From NCBI GenBank assembly GCA_029570385.1, contig JAKPXD010000010.1, positions 1-64,000 on the forward strand: 64,000 nucleotides of DNA, written 5' to 3'. The notes beneath the pieces were generated by a model, which worked only from the letters and a program-made list of their open reading frames with translations, had not been told where the DNA came from and searched no databases. Position 1 is the stretch's first letter. Each line of letters begins with the position of its first letter. Below are positions 20,708 through 29,276 of this stretch, in pieces. A program made the position numbers and the translations under genes. Origin of the DNA: a bacterium. GTDB lineage: Bacteria > Patescibacteriota > Patescibacteriia > Patescibacteriales > Patescibacteriaceae.

Positions 20708-22750
20708 ATGAGTCAAGGTATTAGCAAGATTTGTAAACGCTCCGGAGAAATCGTTGATTTTGATCAGAGCAAGATTACCAACGCTATTAATAAAGCAATG
20801 TCCGCCGTCGGTCAACCCGACAAAGCCAAGGCCGAAATTATTTCCAATGAGGTGGTTAAATTAATCAACCAAAAATTTCATGAACGAAGTATTCCGGCGG
20901 TTGAAGAAATCCAAGATATTGTTGAGGAAGTTTTGATTAACAATCGTTTAATCAAGGTTGCTAAATCTTATATTCTGTATCGCGACCAGCATGCTCGTTT
21001 GCGTAACTTGTCCCTGATGATTGATTCGGAGAAAATCATGGATGATTATTTAAAACAAACTGATTGGCGGGTCAAGGAGAATTCTAATATGAGTTTCAGC
21101 TTACAGGGATTAAATAATCACCTGGCCTCAATTATTTCATCAACTTATTGGCTGAATAAGGTTTATAATGCGCCGATTCGTGAAGCTCATCAAAATGGTG
21201 ATTTTCATCTGCATGACCTACAAATTTTAGCGGCCTATTGCGCTGGTTGGGATATTAAAGATTTATTATTAAAGGGTTTCGGCGGCGTTAGCGGCAAGGT
21301 TGAATCTCGTCCGCCTAAACATTTTAGAACCGCTTTAGGCCAGATTACTAATTTCTTTTATACTGTCCAGGGCGAAGTGGCCGGCGCTCAAGCTTTTTCC
21401 AATTTTGACACCTATTTGGCGCCATTTATTCGCTACGATAAATTAACTTATACCGAAGTTAAACAGGCCATGCAGGAGTTTATTTATAATGTTAATGTGC
21501 CGACTCGGGTTGGTTTTCAGACGCCCTTTACCAATATTACTATGGATCTAAAACCGTCCAAGGCAATGGGTGAAGAAAATGTTATTATTGGCGGCGAACT
21601 TAAAGAAGAGCGTTATCGTGATTTTCAGCCGGAGATTGATATGTTAAATATTGCTTTTGCCGAATTGATGATGGAAGGCGATGCCAAGGGGCGGGTCTTT
21701 TCTTTTCCGATTCCCACCTATAATTTAACCAAAGATTTTCAATGGGATTCGCCTGTAGCCAATAAGATTTTTGAAATGACGCGCAAGTATGGCATTCCTT
21801 ATTTCTCCAATTTTATCAATTCTGATATGGATCCGGATGATGCGCGGTCAATGTGTTGTCGATTACGATTGGACAATCGTGAACTGCGCAAACGCGGTGG
21901 CGGTTTGTTTGGCGCCAATCCATTAACTGGTTCTATCGGCGTGGTGACTATTAATTTGCCGCGTATTGGCTATCTCAGTCAGACTAAAGAAGAGTTTTTC
22001 CAAAGACTGGGTAATCTAATGCGACTGGCTCAAGAGAGTCTGGAAACTAAGCGGGAGATTATTGAAAAATTAACTGAAGGCGGTCTTTATCCGTATGCCC
22101 GCTATTATTTGGCTAGCATCAAAGAGCGGTTTGGCGGTTATTGGAACAATCATTTCGGTACTATCGGTTTAATCGGTATGAATGAAGCCTTAATCAATTT
22201 TGCGCCGATTGCTAATAGCATTGCCAGCCCGGCTGGCCACCAGTTTGCTGAAGAGATTCTGGAATTTATGCGCGAAACTTTAGGTAAATTTCAAGAAGAA
22301 ACCAATCATTTATATAATTTAGAAGCCACCCCGGCCGAGGGTACTTCTCGGCGCTTAGCGCGGTTAGATCGTGATCTTTACCCCAATATCAAGGTAGCCA
22401 ATAATGATAAAATTGACCAGGCGCCATTTTACACCAATTCAACTCAATTACCAGTCAATTTTACCAATGATATTTTTGAAGCTTTGGAGCTACAGGATAG
22501 TTTGCAGACCAAATATACTGGCGGGACAGTTCTTCATTTTTTCTTAGGTGAATCATTGCCCAGCGCTTCAGCAGTGCGGACCTTAGTGCGCAAGGTGGCG
22601 GAGAATTATCATTTACCCTATTTTACTATTACCCCGACCTTTTCTATCTGCCCCAAGCACGGTTATATTGCCGGTGAGCATTTTTATTGTCCCAAATGTG
22701 ATGAGGAGATTGGTTTTCACCCCGAACCAGCCTTGGCCGAGATGGCCTGA
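20708..22750 (+). CDS. nrdD: Anaerobic (class III) ribonucleoside-triphosphate reductase, large part, lacking the glycyl-radical segment
   Basis: Reduces ribonucleotides to deoxyribonucleotides without oxygen. The 680 residues comprise an N-terminal ATP-cone (about 1-95) and the ten-stranded barrel domain (with DFHLHDLQ, GGVSGKVESRPPKH, MCCRLRLD). The C-terminal zinc site has the pairs CPKH and CPKC, in ICPKHGYIAGEHFYCPKC. The protein then ends FHPEPALAEMA at a TGA, before the glycyl-radical loop that normally follows the zinc site. That loop is encoded separately at 22780-22944 in another frame. A second in-frame TAA lies 21 nt after the TGA. Either this is a real two-piece enzyme or an assembly indel has broken it. 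Confidence 0.93.
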   Translation: MSQGISKICKRSGEIVDFDQSKITNAINKAMSAVGQPDKAKAEIISNEVVKLINQKFHERSIPAVEEIQDIVEEVLINNRLIKVAKSYILYRDQHARLRNLSLMIDSEKIMDDYLKQTDWRVKENSNMSFSLQGLNNHLASIISSTYWLNKVYNAPIREAHQNGDFHLHDLQILAAYCAGWDIKDLLLKGFGGVSGKVESRPPKHFRTALGQITNFFYTVQGEVAGAQAFSNFDTYLAPFIRYDKLTYTEVKQAMQEFIYNVNVPTRVGFQTPFTNITMDLKPSKAMGEENVIIGGELKEERYRDFQPEIDMLNIAFAELMMEGDAKGRVFSFPIPTYNLTKDFQWDSPVANKIFEMTRKYGIPYFSNFINSDMDPDDARSMCCRLRLDNRELRKRGGGLFGANPLTGSIGVVTINLPRIGYLSQTKEEFFQRLGNLMRLAQESLETKREIIEKLTEGGLYPYARYYLASIKERFGGYWNNHFGTIGLIGMNEALINFAPIANSIASPAGHQFAEEILEFMRETLGKFQEETNHLYNLEATPAEGTSRRLARLDRDLYPNIKVANNDKIDQAPFYTNSTQLPVNFTNDIFEALELQDSLQTKYTGGTVLHFFLGESLPSASAVRTLVRKVAENYHLPYFTITPTFSICPKHGYIAGEHFYCPKCDEEIGFHPEPALAEMA

Positions 22751-22779
22751 TTAATTTGTTTATTAATTTTTTAATCCCC

Positions 22780-22944
22780 ATGCTTATGTCTCCCTTAGAA
22801 ACCAAACGCACCCCTTGTGAGGTTTACAGTCGTGTTACTGGTTATTTGCGGCCAGTTAAACAATGGAATGATGCCAAACAAGCCGAATTTGCTAATCGTC
22901 AAACTTTTATTGCTGAAGGCGAGAGTGATAGCTGCGGTTGCTAA
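22780..22944 (+). CDS. Separate glycyl-radical domain polypeptide of class III ribonucleotide reductase
   Basis: A 54-residue protein containing the class III RNR glycyl-radical signature EVYSRVTGYLRPVKQWN, with the radical glycine at about residue 21 (Gly in RVTGY), followed by AKQAEFANRQTF. This is the segment missing from the C-terminus of the preceding nrdD. It lies 29 nt downstream in a different reading frame, with AT-rich sequence between. ATG at 22780 or 22786 is the likely start; the reading frame is open back to 22705, so a single-base indel could also explain it. The stop lies 2 nt before the ATG of the activase gene. Its role would be to supply the radical glycine, as GrcA/YfiD does for pyruvate formate-lyase (analogy). 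Confidence 0.85.
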   Translation: MLMSPLETKRTPCEVYSRVTGYLRPVKQWNDAKQAEFANRQTFIAEGESDSCGC

Positions 22945-23735: not shown

Positions 23736-23951
23736 ATGGATGAAGATTTGCGGCGAGTTTTAGCCGACCAAGCAGCAGCCATTGCCGAGATTCGGGAAAA
23801 CACCCGATTGATTTATCGGTATGTTTATTGGCAAAGAATTCTTAGCTGGATTAAATGGCTTCTGCTTCTCCTGTCTTTATTAGCTGGTGTTATCTATTTG
23901 CCGCCGTTATTAAAAGATTATTTTAGTTTGTATAACTCAATTTTGCGGTAA
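23736..23951 (+). CDS. Small predicted membrane protein, unknown function
   Basis: 71 residues from ATG 23736: an N-terminal helix rich in charged residues (MDEDLRRVLADQAAAIAEIR), then one membrane segment (about 38-58, WIKWLLLLLSLLAGVIYLPPL). No motif is recognised. The layout (short amphipathic helix followed by one membrane helix) is common among small CPR proteins. It lies 4 nt upstream of the prfB start and shares its promoter. Confidence 0.6.
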   Translation: MDEDLRRVLADQAAAIAEIRENTRLIYRYVYWQRILSWIKWLLLLLSLLAGVIYLPPLLKDYFSLYNSILR

Positions 23952-23955
23952 TCTT

Positions 23956-25075
23956 ATGCTTGAAATAGTTAATGGTCAAAATATTGAGGCGGTCCGTCAA
24001 CGCCTTCTAGAGATTGGGAGGTGGCTTTGACCTAGCTGCCAAGCAGCGGCAACTAGCCACTTTGCAAGCAAAAGCTCAGACACCCGATCTGTGGTCTGAT
24101 CCTGAACAAGCCGGCCAATTATTAAAAAGGATTGAAGTTATTCAAACCGAAATTAATAATTATCAGGCCACTGAACAGCGTTTAGCCGACTTAGCCGCCT
24201 TAGCTGCGACTGGCGAAATCGATGCCATCACTGCCGATTTAGTGCAGACTGAACTGCAACAAATTATTCAACTTATCGAGCAGCTGGAAAATAGTCGTTT
24301 TTTTGATCAGCCGCACGATGATTTGCCGGTTATTTTGTCAATTCACGCCGGCACTGGCGGTGTTGATGCTCAAGATTGGGCTCTGATATTAGAGCGAATG
24401 TATCTGCGCTATGCTGATCGACAGGGTTGGTCTAGTCAAGTTTTAGATGAACAGGCCGGTAATGAGGCTGGCATTAAAAGTGTTACCTTGCGTCTAGCTG
24501 GTCCGCTGGCTTATGGTTTTTTACGCGGTGAAGGTGGCACTCATCGGCTATTGCGTAATTCGCCGTTTAATGCTCAACATTTGCGACAAACCTCTTTTGC
24601 CCTGGTTGAAGTTATCCCGGAATTGCCGGCTATTGAAGCGCCGGCAATTACTGAGAATGAATTACAGATTGATGTTTTTCGTTCTTCCGGTCCGGGCGGT
24701 CAAGGCGTAAATACGACTGATTCGGCGGTGCGGTTGACTCATTTACCCAGCGGTTTAGTGGTAACTTGCCAAAGTGAACGTTCGCAACATCAAAATAAAA
24801 TTTTGGCTTTGGCCGTTTTACAATCCAAGTTGGCCCAGCAGCAAGCCGAAAAACTGAATCAGCAAAAGCAAACACTTAAAGGTCAACAAATTAAAGCTGA
24901 TTGGGGTTTGCAAATCAGATCGTATTTTTTATATGGCAGCCAAATTATTAAAGATCATCGCACCGCAGTCAGCACTAGCGATGTCGCCGGGGTTTTAGAC
25001 GGTAAATTAGAGTTATTTTTAAAGGCTTACTGGTTATGGGATTGGCAGCGGCGTCAAGCCGATCCGTCTGCTTAA
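23956..25075 (+). CDS. prfB: Peptide chain release factor 2, expressed by programmed +1 frameshift
   Basis: RF2 ends translation at UAA and UGA. Translation starts at ATG 23956, reads 24 codons to CTT at 24025-24027 and meets an in-frame TGA at 24028. Skipping one T and resuming at GAC 24029 joins RRWL-type sequence to DLAAKQRQLATLQAKAQ, as in other RF2 proteins. The full product is 372 residues. Diagnostic motifs are the RF2 tripeptide SPF (in RNSPFNAQHLRQTSF) and the catalytic GGQ (SSGPGGQGVNTTDSAVRLTH). Coding segments are 23956-24027 and 24029-25075. The gene lies between a small membrane protein and comEC. Confidence 0.95.
24016..24031 (+). promoter_or_regulatory. RF2 programmed +1 frameshift site with internal Shine-Dalgarno
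   Basis: The sequence GGGAGGTGGCTTTGAC contains a Shine-Dalgarno-like GGGAGGT, two bases, the slippery CTT, the stop TGA and a following C. Counted from the anti-Shine-Dalgarno pairing, the spacing to CTT equals that in E. coli (AGGGGGT, AT, CTT, TGA, C). Low RF2 makes the ribosome pause and slip, raising RF2 synthesis. Confidence 0.93.
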
Positions 25076-25093
25076 AAGATAATTGATAAAACT

Positions 25094-26578
25094 ATGTCCG
25101 GAGGGGGACAATTCTTTCCGGCTAGCCGTTATTGGCTGGCTTTTATTTTCGGTATTGCGTTAGTCGGGTTGTGGCCGAGTCATTGGTCAGTGGCTTATTT
25201 TTATGGTGGTTTATTGGGGATTGCTTTGGCTGGTTTGACCGGTAAGCGGAAACGGTCAGTTTTAGTATTGGCTTTATGTTTAGTAATTGGTTTTTGGCGG
25301 GCCGACACTGCCTTGGTATCGGCCGTTACAACAGCATCATCTTTAAGTTCTAGCGGCGATATAATTATTAAGGGGCGATTGGTCAGCCGACCGCAGCCTC
25401 GCTCTAGCGGTGGATCGCAGATGATTATTAAGGATATTAATTATTATAGCCATTCCGGCTGGCGCACTTGGCCCGGGCGAGTCCTGGTTTATGGTCCTGA
25501 AAGCTGGTTAAGCGGAGCTCAGGCTGGCCAAAGCTGGCAATTTAGCGGCCGTTTAGCCGCGTGGCCAGCCGGTGGTGTTTTCAGTTATCGTTATTATCTG
25601 TTTAATCGCAGCGCTCGGGCTATCTTACAGGCCGACCAGCGGCAGCTGGTGGCTAGCCAGCCCCAAAACTGGTGGTTTTATTTGGTTAATGGCCAAGAGC
25701 GCTTATCTCAGGCGTTAGCCAATAGTTTGCCAGAACCGGCGGCTAGTTTGGCTGGTCCCTTGGTTTGGGGTGGCGCAGGTCAAATATCGGCTGAGTGGCG
25801 TCAACGGCTGGCGATTACCGGTTTAAGCCATATTACCGCCGTGTCCGGTTTTAATATTAGCTTGTTGCTTGTTTTATTTATTGATAATTTTATTATTCTG
25901 GGCTGGCCGCGCCGCTGGGCCACAATTAGCGCCAGTTTGGTTATTGCTATTTATGTTTTAGTTATCGGGGCGCCAGCTTCAGCCGTGCGGGCCGGTCTTT
26001 TTGGTTTGTTATTGGTCTGGGGCCGTTATTGCGGTCGCCTGGGCCGGAGCGGCCATCTGCTTTTAATTAGCGCGGCGGTTATGTTGGCCATTAATCCTTT
26101 TTATTTTTGGGGTGATTTGGGTTTTAGTTTGTCATTTGCCGCGGTTTTCGGCCTGCTCTATTGGACTGAATTGTGGCAAAAATGGTTACGGCGGATACCG
26201 TTATTGCGGCTGCCACTGATTAGTGAAAATTTGGCAGTCACTCTGGCGGCTCAGATGTGGACTTGGCCGTTAATTTTTTGGCAATTCGGTCAAATTTCCA
26301 TGATAGCGCCATTGGCTAATTTATTGGTGGTTTGGGCTTTACCGTGGTTGACCATCTTTCTCTTGCTGGCTAGTCCCTTGGCTTGGCTCTGGCCAGCCGG
26401 CGGGGTTTTTATTTTTGCTCCAGCCGGTTGGTTGCTAAAGATTTTGTTAGCCATAATTGCTAATTTAGCTAATTGGCCGGCGGCCGGTTTTATAGTAGAG
26501 TGGCCGAGTGGCTGGCGGATTGGGATCATTATAATTTATTATGGATTAACTGTGGTTTTGCTTAGACGAAGAAAATGA
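25094..26578 (+). CDS. comEC: ComEC/Rec2-family DNA uptake channel, without metallo-beta-lactamase domain
   Basis: ComEC forms the inner-membrane channel for single-stranded DNA during natural transformation. The 494 residues have N-terminal membrane helices, an OB-like segment (about 85-160, IIIKGRLVSRPQPR), then the polytopic competence domain with the signature ISHITAVSGFNISLLLVLF and the following APASAVRAGLFGLL. The protein ends after the last membrane helices at IYYGLTVVLLRRRK. It lacks the C-terminal metallo-beta-lactamase domain found in longer (~750 aa) ComEC proteins. It starts 18 nt after prfB and is followed by a terminator. Confidence 0.9.
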   Translation: MSGGGQFFPASRYWLAFIFGIALVGLWPSHWSVAYFYGGLLGIALAGLTGKRKRSVLVLALCLVIGFWRADTALVSAVTTASSLSSSGDIIIKGRLVSRPQPRSSGGSQMIIKDINYYSHSGWRTWPGRVLVYGPESWLSGAQAGQSWQFSGRLAAWPAGGVFSYRYYLFNRSARAILQADQRQLVASQPQNWWFYLVNGQERLSQALANSLPEPAASLAGPLVWGGAGQISAEWRQRLAITGLSHITAVSGFNISLLLVLFIDNFIILGWPRRWATISASLVIAIYVLVIGAPASAVRAGLFGLLLVWGRYCGRLGRSGHLLLISAAVMLAINPFYFWGDLGFSLSFAAVFGLLYWTELWQKWLRRIPLLRLPLISENLAVTLAAQMWTWPLIFWQFGQISMIAPLANLLVVWALPWLTIFLLLASPLAWLWPAGGVFIFAPAGWLLKILLAIIANLANWPAAGFIVEWPSGWRIGIIIIYYGLTVVLLRRRK

Positions 26579-26625: not shown

Positions 26626-26648
26626 AACAGCAGTTTCTCTTGATTTTT

Positions 26649-29276
26649 ATGACTGAATTAGCTAAAACCTACGAACCGCAAAATTACGAAGCGGCGATTT
26701 ATCAGCGTTGGTTGGATAGCGGTTTATTTAATCCAGATAATTTGCCACTGCCGGCTGAAGCGCCCAACTATACTATTATTTTGCCGCCACCCAATATTAC
26801 TGACAAGCTGCATTTAGGCCATGCCGCTATGTTGGCCATTGAAGATTTATTGATTCGCTATCATCGAGCCCGCGGCTATCGGACATTATGGTTGCCCGGC
26901 ACTGATCATGCCGCCATCGCTACTCAGAATGTTGTTGAGAAATTACTTTATCAGACCGAAGGCAAGACTCGCCATGATTATGGTCGGGAAGAGTTTTTGC
27001 GGCGCGTTTGGGAGTTTGTTGGGCCAACTAGAGAAACCATTTTGCATCAAATTAGAAGAATGGGCGCCTCGCTGGATTGGTCGCGGATGACTTTTACTAT
27101 GGATGAGCCGCGACAAAAGGCAGTGCGGGTAATGTTTAAACAGATGTATGACGAGGGGGCGATTTACCGGGGCGAACGGGTGGTTAATTGGTGTCCGCGT
27201 TGTCAAAGCACCTTGTCCGACGATGAGGTTGACTACAAAGAACAGCCGGCCGAATTATATACTTTTAAATATTCAGCTGATTTTCCAATCGCTATTGCCA
27301 CCACTCGGCCGGAAACCAAATTAGGCGATACAGCTGTAGCGGTCAATCCGCAAGATAAGCGTTATCAGCAATATATCGGCCAAACCTACCAGGTTGATTT
27401 TTGCGGCCAGCCATTGACGATTAAGATTATTGCTGATCGGTCGGTAGATATGGCTTTTGGTACTGGCGCGGTCGGTGTGACGCCGGCTCATTCCATGACT
27501 GATTGGCAATTCAAAGAAAAACACGACTTAGCCGTGGTTAAAGTTATTACTCCTGATGGTTTAATGGCGGACAATCTTGGTCGTTTTAGCGGCTTGCCGG
27601 TTGCAGAAGCTCGTCAATTAGTGGTTGCTGAGCTAGGCCAGCGCCAGCTGTTAATTCAACAGACAACTATTACCAATAATTTATCTATCTGTTATCGCTG
27701 CGGCACCGCTATTGAGCCTTTGCCATCGAAACAATGGTTTATTGGTGTTGATCGTCCCTTGGACCGTTTGGGCGGCCGGTCGTTAAAACAAGCCGCCATG
27801 GCAGCGGTGGAACAGGGTCAAACCAAATTTGTGCCCGAGCGGTTTCAAAAACGCTACTTGGATTGGATGGCTAATTTACATGATTGGTGTATTTCTCGGC
27901 AGATTTGGTTTGGCCACCAGATTCCGGTCTGGTATCGTGGTGAAGAAATAATGGTCAGCGATACTGCCCCTCATGGTGGCGATTGGCAGCAGGATCCGGA
28001 TACTTTAGATACTTGGTTTTCATCGGGCATGTGGACTTTTTCCACTTTAGGCTGGCCGGATAATTTTGTTGACGGTCAAAAGATTGGCGATTTAGCCCGA
28101 TTTCATCCGACTCAAGTTTTAGAGACCGGTTATGACATCTTGACTCTGTGGGTGTCGCGCATGATGATGATGACTCTTTTTGCTTTGGGTGAAGTGCCAT
28201 TTACCGATGTTTATATGCACGGCTTGGTTTTGGATGAACATGGCAAGAAAATGAGCAAGTCCAAAGGTAACGGCCTTGATCCGTTAGATATGATTGAGCT
28301 TTATGGTACTGATGCCGTTCGCTTATCGTTATTGATCGGTATTACTCCGGGTAATGATTGTCGCCTGGGGACCGCTAAAATTGCCAGTTATCGTAATTTT
28401 GTCAATAAGCTTTGGAATATTGGTCGTTATATTTTGTCAGCACTGCCTGATAAAACAGTTTTTGTCCATAATAACATAGACTTAACACAAACAACTTGGG
28501 CTGACCGCTGGATTCTGAGCCGTTTTGATAAATTGGTTAAGACGGTTGGCCAACGCATTAGCCGCTATGAATTTTCATTAGCTGGTGAAGCTTTGCGCGA
28601 TTTTACTTGGAATGATTTAGCTGATTGGTATTTGGAAATCAGCAAGATGGAGCCGACTAGTCAGAAAGCTAATATTTTGGGCTATATTTTTAAAAATCTA
28701 TTGATTCTGTGGCAGCCGTTTATTCCTTTTGTGACTGAAGTCCTCTGGCAACAGCTCGGGATTGATCAGCCGCTATTAATTGCTCAATGGCCAGAACAGT
28801 TGAGCGGTGATTGGGCAGATGCCGAATCTTTTACCATAGTTCAGCAATTAATTACTGAAATTCGCAATTTACGCAGCCATCAACAAATCGCTCCCAATCA
28901 AAACTTATCCGCCTTGATTATCGCCGGACAACAGGCCGAAGCCTTAAACAGTCAGATAGATTTATTAAAAAAATTGCGCACCGGTTTAGAACAAGTGGAG
29001 ATTGTAGCTACTGGCTCAGCTCCGGCCGATTCTTTGGCTGGCGTTTGCGGTCAGATTAGTTTTTATTTATTTGGTCAAATTGACCAAACTGGCGCTCAAG
29101 CTAAGATTGCTAAGAAAATTGTTGAGCTGACAACGGCCATTGAGCAGTTATCTATCCGTTTAGCTAATCCTGAATTTATCGCTAAGGCGCCGAAAAAAAT
29201 TATTTTAGCCGAACAAAATAAATTAGCTGATTGGCAAGCCGAATTGACGGCTCTAAATCAGCAAATAACTAAATAA
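26649..29276 (+). CDS. valS: Valyl-tRNA synthetase
   Basis: Class I synthetase. From ATG 26649 the protein has 875 residues. The HIGH motif is HLGH (55-58) in PPPNITDKLHLGHAAML, where the usual glycine before the motif is Asp. The KMSKS motif is KKMSKSKGN near residue 533. The editing (CP1) domain shows TTRPETKLGDTAVAVNP. An anticodon-binding domain and a C-terminal coiled-coil arm (AKIAKKIVELTTAIEQL...) complete the enzyme. A TTG three codons upstream is the only alternative start. First gene of a run of synthetase genes; mscS-like follows within 2 nt. Confidence 0.96.
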   Translation: MTELAKTYEPQNYEAAIYQRWLDSGLFNPDNLPLPAEAPNYTIILPPPNITDKLHLGHAAMLAIEDLLIRYHRARGYRTLWLPGTDHAAIATQNVVEKLLYQTEGKTRHDYGREEFLRRVWEFVGPTRETILHQIRRMGASLDWSRMTFTMDEPRQKAVRVMFKQMYDEGAIYRGERVVNWCPRCQSTLSDDEVDYKEQPAELYTFKYSADFPIAIATTRPETKLGDTAVAVNPQDKRYQQYIGQTYQVDFCGQPLTIKIIADRSVDMAFGTGAVGVTPAHSMTDWQFKEKHDLAVVKVITPDGLMADNLGRFSGLPVAEARQLVVAELGQRQLLIQQTTITNNLSICYRCGTAIEPLPSKQWFIGVDRPLDRLGGRSLKQAAMAAVEQGQTKFVPERFQKRYLDWMANLHDWCISRQIWFGHQIPVWYRGEEIMVSDTAPHGGDWQQDPDTLDTWFSSGMWTFSTLGWPDNFVDGQKIGDLARFHPTQVLETGYDILTLWVSRMMMMTLFALGEVPFTDVYMHGLVLDEHGKKMSKSKGNGLDPLDMIELYGTDAVRLSLLIGITPGNDCRLGTAKIASYRNFVNKLWNIGRYILSALPDKTVFVHNNIDLTQTTWADRWILSRFDKLVKTVGQRISRYEFSLAGEALRDFTWNDLADWYLEISKMEPTSQKANILGYIFKNLLILWQPFIPFVTEVLWQQLGIDQPLLIAQWPEQLSGDWADAESFTIVQQLITEIRNLRSHQQIAPNQNLSALIIAGQQAEALNSQIDLLKKLRTGLEQVEIVATGSAPADSLAGVCGQISFYLFGQIDQTGAQAKIAKKIVELTTAIEQLSIRLANPEFIAKAPKKIILAEQNKLADWQAELTALNQQITK

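Follow-up and report, generated by a model that had tools for sequence, protein, structure and literature searches.

Genetic Organization of the prfB Locus

The window, i.e., the whole stretch of 64,000 nt that was analyzed, belongs to a fragmented draft genome (31 contigs, 654 kb, 89.65% complete) and carries the gene prfB for release factor 2 (RF2) as two reading frames on the forward strand (Table 1). On direct reading, ORF1 translates to MLEIVNGQNIEAVRQRLLEIGRWL, followed by a stop, and its end reads GGGAGG-TGG-CTT-TGA-C. Between the preceding zero-frame stop, which ends at 23913, and the TGA, only one ATG, GTG or TTG was found. The RF2 body, read from the GAC at 24029, begins with DLAAKQRQL, and the fused product comprises 372 aa. 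An earlier sequence-only reading of this DNA had pointed out the TGA at codon 25, the CTT before it, the spacing of GGGAGGT and the C after the TGA, and each of these elements was found again. According to the available portion of PMC12421855, a spacing of 3 nt between the Shine-Dalgarno (SD)-like element and CTT is that of the domain-wide motif.

Table 1. Features of the prfB locus and its neighbors in the window.
Feature	Position	Strand	Remarks
nrdD, barrel ORF	20708..22750	+	ends with TGA 22748-22750
nrdD, C-terminal ORF	22756..22944	+	likely start ATG 22780 or 22786
71-aa protein	23736..23951	+	directly upstream of prfB
prfB ORF1, 24 codons and in-frame TGA (codon 25)	23956..24030	+	ATG 23956-23958, sole zero-frame start; codon-phased conservation
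Out-of-frame TTG	24014..24016	+	start chosen by a naive ORF caller, unlikely to be the true start; precedes the SD-like element
SD-like stimulator GGGAGGT	24016..24022	+	GGGAGG 24016-24021, T 24022; 3 nt between GGGAGG and slippery codon; strongest pairing of 61 sites
Slippery CTT_T	24025..24028	+	P-site Leu codon CUU (24025-24027), would slip to UUU; CTT TGA in 61/61 sites
In-frame TGA with +4 C	24028..24031	+	TGA 24028-24030, C 24031; weak termination context; skipped T would be 24028
prfB ORF2, +1 frame, RF2 body of 348 aa	24029..25075	+	SPF and GGQ motifs; TIGR00020; E. coli RF2 alignment; PCRF/RF-1
ComEC-type competence protein	25094..26578	+	downstream of prfB
Aminoacyl-tRNA synthetase with ValRS C-terminal arm	26640..29276	+	downstream of prfB

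When up to one mismatch was allowed, GGAGGNNNCTTTGAC occurred a single time in the window, namely at the prfB site with 0 mismatches (0.11 expected). The looser pattern GGNGGNNNCTTTGA occurred five times in the 654-kb genome; thus, the motif alone is not unique, and the decisive point is that it lies at the RF2 junction.

A mechanical ORF caller placed the start of the gene at TTG 24014 and returned a product of 353 aa, as had been anticipated for callers that ignore frameshifts. All 24 native N-terminal residues are dropped in this product and five wrong-frame residues are gained, i.e., a net loss of 19 residues. With an RF2 frame that is already open at TTG 24014, RF2 might be initiated internally and the frameshift left unused. 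However, TTG 24014 precedes the SD-like element, while the next start in the RF2 frame, TTG 24062, lies about 40 nt beyond it and would cut the aligned N-terminal region. Internal initiation would also leave the conservation of ORF1 as a coding sequence (see below) unexplained, and it is considered very improbable.

Regarding the neighborhood, the 71-aa protein probably contains a membrane segment (judged by eye) and had no Pfam match. Relatives were detected by tblastn in 14 of the 53 loci of the order that were compared, and it may be a conserved neighbor of prfB. The gene nrdD for anaerobic ribonucleotide reductase is split. In the barrel ORF, the Pfam NRDD match breaks off at position 529 of the 562-position profile; the glycyl-radical loop of the C-terminus (CEVYSRVTGYLRPVKQWN) lies on the separate short ORF. 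A separate C-terminal match was found in 9 of 10 NRDD-bearing genomes (13 searched). In 14 of 15 loci of the order, the radical piece has its own ATG, with a gap of 25–355 nt and in any frame; the separate piece is present in the 15th locus as well. Its own ATG, the variable gap and the free choice of frame make the glycyl-radical loop look like a stand-alone, radical-carrying protein of about 50 aa rather than the product of a frameshift. No split class III enzyme was found in literature searches, and the available portions of PMC9669993 and PMC9531940 mention split class II only. The split nrdD is possibly more novel than the prfB finding.

Identity of the RF2 Body and UGA as a Stop Codon

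The RF2 body scored 401 bits against TIGR00020 (prfB; cut-off 370) and 233.9 against the best RF1 model (cut-off 400). The fused protein contains the PCRF and RF-1 Pfam domains. Its match to RF2 across the junction, claimed in the sequence-only reading, held up in the alignment proposed there as a check: residues 10 to 357 aligned to E. coli RF2 chains from structures with an E-value of 1.8e-80, and the junction GRWL|DLAAKQRQL aligned without a gap to E. coli RGYLDYDAKKERL. The stop-reading motif SPF and the catalytic motif GGQ aligned with their E. coli RF2 counterparts. The nearest named RF2s were those of Ca. Falkowbacteria and other Patescibacteria (64–65% identity). Another place in the genome also matched the prfB model, with 286.8 bits and hence under the cut-off; this is presumably RF1.

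Some Patescibacteria are known to have recoded UGA. At E ≤ 1e-105, 39 of the 379 genomes of the phylum lacked an RF2 match, several of them listed as 100% complete (e.g., G085, G135, G192, G234, G273); UGA may be recoded in these lineages and RF2 absent. If UGA were recoded or read through here, however, translation in the zero frame would yield PSCQAAATSHFASKSSDTRSVV and then a stop, not RF2. In addition, the genome has RF2, and among the tRNAs read by ARAGORN in this 89.65% complete genome (one tRNA match at a contig end remained unread) there was none with a UCA anticodon, tRNA-Trp having the CCA anticodon only. The missing UCA-anticodon tRNA is supporting, not final, evidence for UGA as a stop. 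TGA terminates 6 of the 50 ORFs of at least 120 aa in the window. With the RF2 score above its cut-off, these results bear out the earlier statement that UGA is a real stop in this organism, and recoding is given hardly any probability.

Conservation of ORF1

The ORF1 peptides of the two congeners, EIINKEAVDSLRERLLEIGRCL and EIINKEAIENLRQRLLEIGRCL, are identical to that of the window at 12/22 and 15/22 residues, respectively. Substitutions at the first, second and third codon positions before the TGA numbered 16/7/34 within the genus, as compared to 51/44/42 in the 72 nt upstream. The corresponding values were 24/3/43 and 100/96/91 in family f20, and 24/17/63 and 85/99/99 for four members of the window's own family (f1). 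Thus, the 24 codons of ORF1 are under purifying, codon-phased conservation, with no codon phase upstream. The sequence-only reading had named a lack of conservation of these codons as the result that would count against it; the opposite was seen. In-frame relatives encode this N-terminus with no intervening stop (MENLLKKIEELRERLLKTWRLLDID), which indicates that ORF1 belongs to RF2.

Host Components and Proposed Mechanism

The 16S rRNA gene carries the exact anti-SD sequence GGATCACCTCCTTT at its 3' end. Pairing of the 14 nt before CTT with the genome's own 16S 3' end was calculated as −15.9 kcal/mol. tRNA-Leu(GAG), the reader of CUU, was present according to ARAGORN.

According to the available parts of PMC12421855 and PMC5009743, prfB of E. 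coli and most bacteria has a TGA near codon 25, CTT_T, TGA-C, the RF2 body in the +1 frame and an SD-like element 3 nt before CTT. All of these are shared by the prfB of the window, whereas its TGA is codon 25 instead of codon 26 as in E. coli and its SD-like element is GGGAGGT instead of AGGGGG. By analogy with E. coli, a ribosome starting at ATG 23956 would translate 24 codons and then stall, its P site occupied by CUU and its A site by UGA. The anti-SD of the 16S rRNA would pair with the GGGAGGU located shortly before this point, and termination would be slowed by the weak UGA-C context. With abundant RF2, translation would terminate at UGA and a 24-aa peptide would be released. With scarce RF2, tRNA-Leu would slip from CUU to UUU, GAC would become the next A-site codon, and translation would go on to the RF2 of 372 aa. 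The observations in this genome cover the identity of RF2, the anti-SD, the tRNA, and the presence and conservation of the sequence elements; slippage in the cell and its response to the RF2 level are carried over from E. coli prfB. With high confidence, the gene is regarded as a canonical prfB with a +1 programmed frameshift by which RF2 would limit its own synthesis. The site itself is ordinary, and nothing about it is mechanistically new.

Slippage could instead be constitutive, with the RF2 feedback lost and the site no longer regulatory. The SD-like element is unusually strong, and TGA being a rare stop in the window, the demand for RF2 may be low. On the other hand, the RF2-specific stop TGA was retained in 17/17 sites of the order, 13 of which have C at +4. 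Constitutive slippage is therefore regarded as unlikely, albeit with a small real chance, and the autoregulated frameshift is retained as the preferred reading.

Distribution of the Frameshift Site in the Order and the Phylum

Of the 57 RF2 loci read in the order of the window, 56 include the N-terminus (G025, cut by a contig edge, was excluded from the 56). The frameshift site was present in 17 of these 56 genes, while 39 were in frame. Four automatically flagged candidates of the order (L008, L013, L035, L057) and one of the phylum (L217) were rejected, the motif being located either before the RF2 start or not in register with it. Within the window's own family, 11 of the 12 readable prfB genes had CTT TGA at codon 23–26, G012 being the member without a frameshift; the remaining sites of the order belong to families f17, f18 and f20. 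Some related genera have weaker SD-like elements (G005, −5.6; G008, −4.8; G009, −5.9 kcal/mol). These weak elements among its kin and the lack of a frameshift in G012 of the same family argue that the device is dispensable in the lineage.

At E ≤ 1e-105, an RF2 match was obtained for 340 of the 379 genomes of the phylum. From the best-scoring of these 340 matches, 39 loci with a late-starting or stop-bearing profile match (fetched in part) and 35 loci with a profile match from the N-terminus were sampled. Among the matches listed, the frameshift site was present in 38 of the 39 former loci, G285 being in frame, and in 0 of the 35 latter. The in-frame loci were taken in E-value order, so these numbers are not unbiased frequencies.

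Since the genome is a draft in 31 contigs and one base decides the reading frame, the extra T of this metagenome-assembled contig might be an assembly or sequencing indel. However, 16 further genomes from the order had the same CTT TGA at the same place, including two congeners, mostly together with an SD-like element, and the phylum-wide recurrence of the site in late-starting RF2s also speaks against an artifact. An indel is thus considered exceedingly improbable, and the frameshift is taken as genuine.

The in-frame prfB genes of the order encode mostly the same N-terminal protein (MENLL..ELRERLL..WRLLDID), and some retain GGAGG or GGGGG before the junction. Without the extra T, they have no in-frame TGA and RF2 would be made without a frameshift. 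The surroundings of the site are often retained in in-frame genes, and both states can lie one T apart, as seen from the in-frame TGGAGG CTT CTT GAT (G044, G018) and TGGAGG TTG CTT TGA C (family f20). Among the 74 in-frame windows, drawn from order and phylum, 13 had a calculated anti-SD pairing of −7 kcal/mol or stronger, as compared to 29 of 54 frameshift sites, with medians of −3.5 and −7.6 kcal/mol, respectively (p = 7e-7). In-frame prfB genes are reported in the available portion of PMC12421855 to have lost these elements. As some in-frame genes here still have such elements, the loss may be recent, or gain may be easy.

In a tree of 130 RF2s (54 frameshifting and 76 counted as in frame, including G025; the 183-aa fragment of G011 was excluded), at least 15 changes of state were required, whereas shuffled states averaged 41.5. 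At least eight of these changes lay on strongly supported branches. The tree is unrooted, so that these are changes in either direction, gain and loss being indistinguishable.

Weak SD-Like Elements and Family f46

CTT TGA was present in all 61 sites read. C predominated at +4 (41 sites), followed by T (10), G (8) and A (2). For 27 of the 61, the SD-like element was classed as weak, its pairing lying above −7 kcal/mol. In family f46, 9 of 10 genomes had an RF2 match (L231–L239) and CTT TGA was kept in 9/9, one such site reading GCCGACCGT CTT TGA C. Upstream, GCCGAC (8) or GTCGAC (1) was found, followed by one more codon. No SD-like element was detected in any of these nine sites, with pairing of −2.2 to −6.4 kcal/mol. 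The anti-SD was checked in three members, G184, G128 and G092, all of which have it in exact form. G146, from another family, resembles f46, with a pairing of +0.5. SD pairing at gene starts of −7 or better (3/32, 4/78 and 18/127) was given no weight, the counts being based on crude first-start gene calls. The SD-like element and its spacing are called almost universally conserved in the available portion of PMC12421855, a claim to which these patescibacterial genes form an exception.

TGA Usage in Frameshifting and In-Frame Genomes

The figures on TGA usage cover the 64-kb window and, for each relative, a stretch of at most 20 kb. Loci with fewer than five ORFs (G010 and G022 of the order and 2 of the 74 phylum loci) were dropped, as were G011, whose row was too short for the tree, and G025 and G057, for which there was no 20-kb stretch. 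In the order, TGA ended 35 of 231 ORFs in frameshifting as compared to 36 of 517 in in-frame genomes. Overall, the values were 193/829 (53 frameshifting genomes) and 116/1040 (71 in-frame genomes; Mann-Whitney, 3.8e-6), and the effect of frameshifting on TGA use after accounting for GC was 0.61 (s.e. 0.15). In a test that considered relatedness, the eight independent pairs gave on average 3.5 for and 0.6 against the trend (median p = 0.375). The available portion of PMC12421855, whose main survey covers 12,753 RefSeq genomes, reports more TGA stops and higher GC for genomes without the frameshift. The higher TGA use in frameshifting genomes seen here is opposite to this published trend and is regarded as a lead, coming from a non-random sample and not being significant given relatedness.

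Significance for Patescibacteria

The terms "patescibacter", "CPR" and "candidate phyl" are absent from the available main text of PMC12421855, and searches found no open-licence paper joining prfB or release factor 2, frameshifting and CPR/Patescibacteria. It is a tentative view, held at somewhat less than even confidence, that the prfB frameshift of Patescibacteria is freely switched by a single T in CTT(T)GA, partly simplified, without a stimulator in family f46, and lost in TGA-poor genomes. The worth of the window site lies in the correct N-terminus for annotation and in its support for UGA as a stop in the lineage. On preliminary grounds, the survey around the gene is of more interest than the site itself. 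The wider pattern matters more, since both survey claims, on the SD-like element and on TGA use, are testable in a large, little-studied branch.
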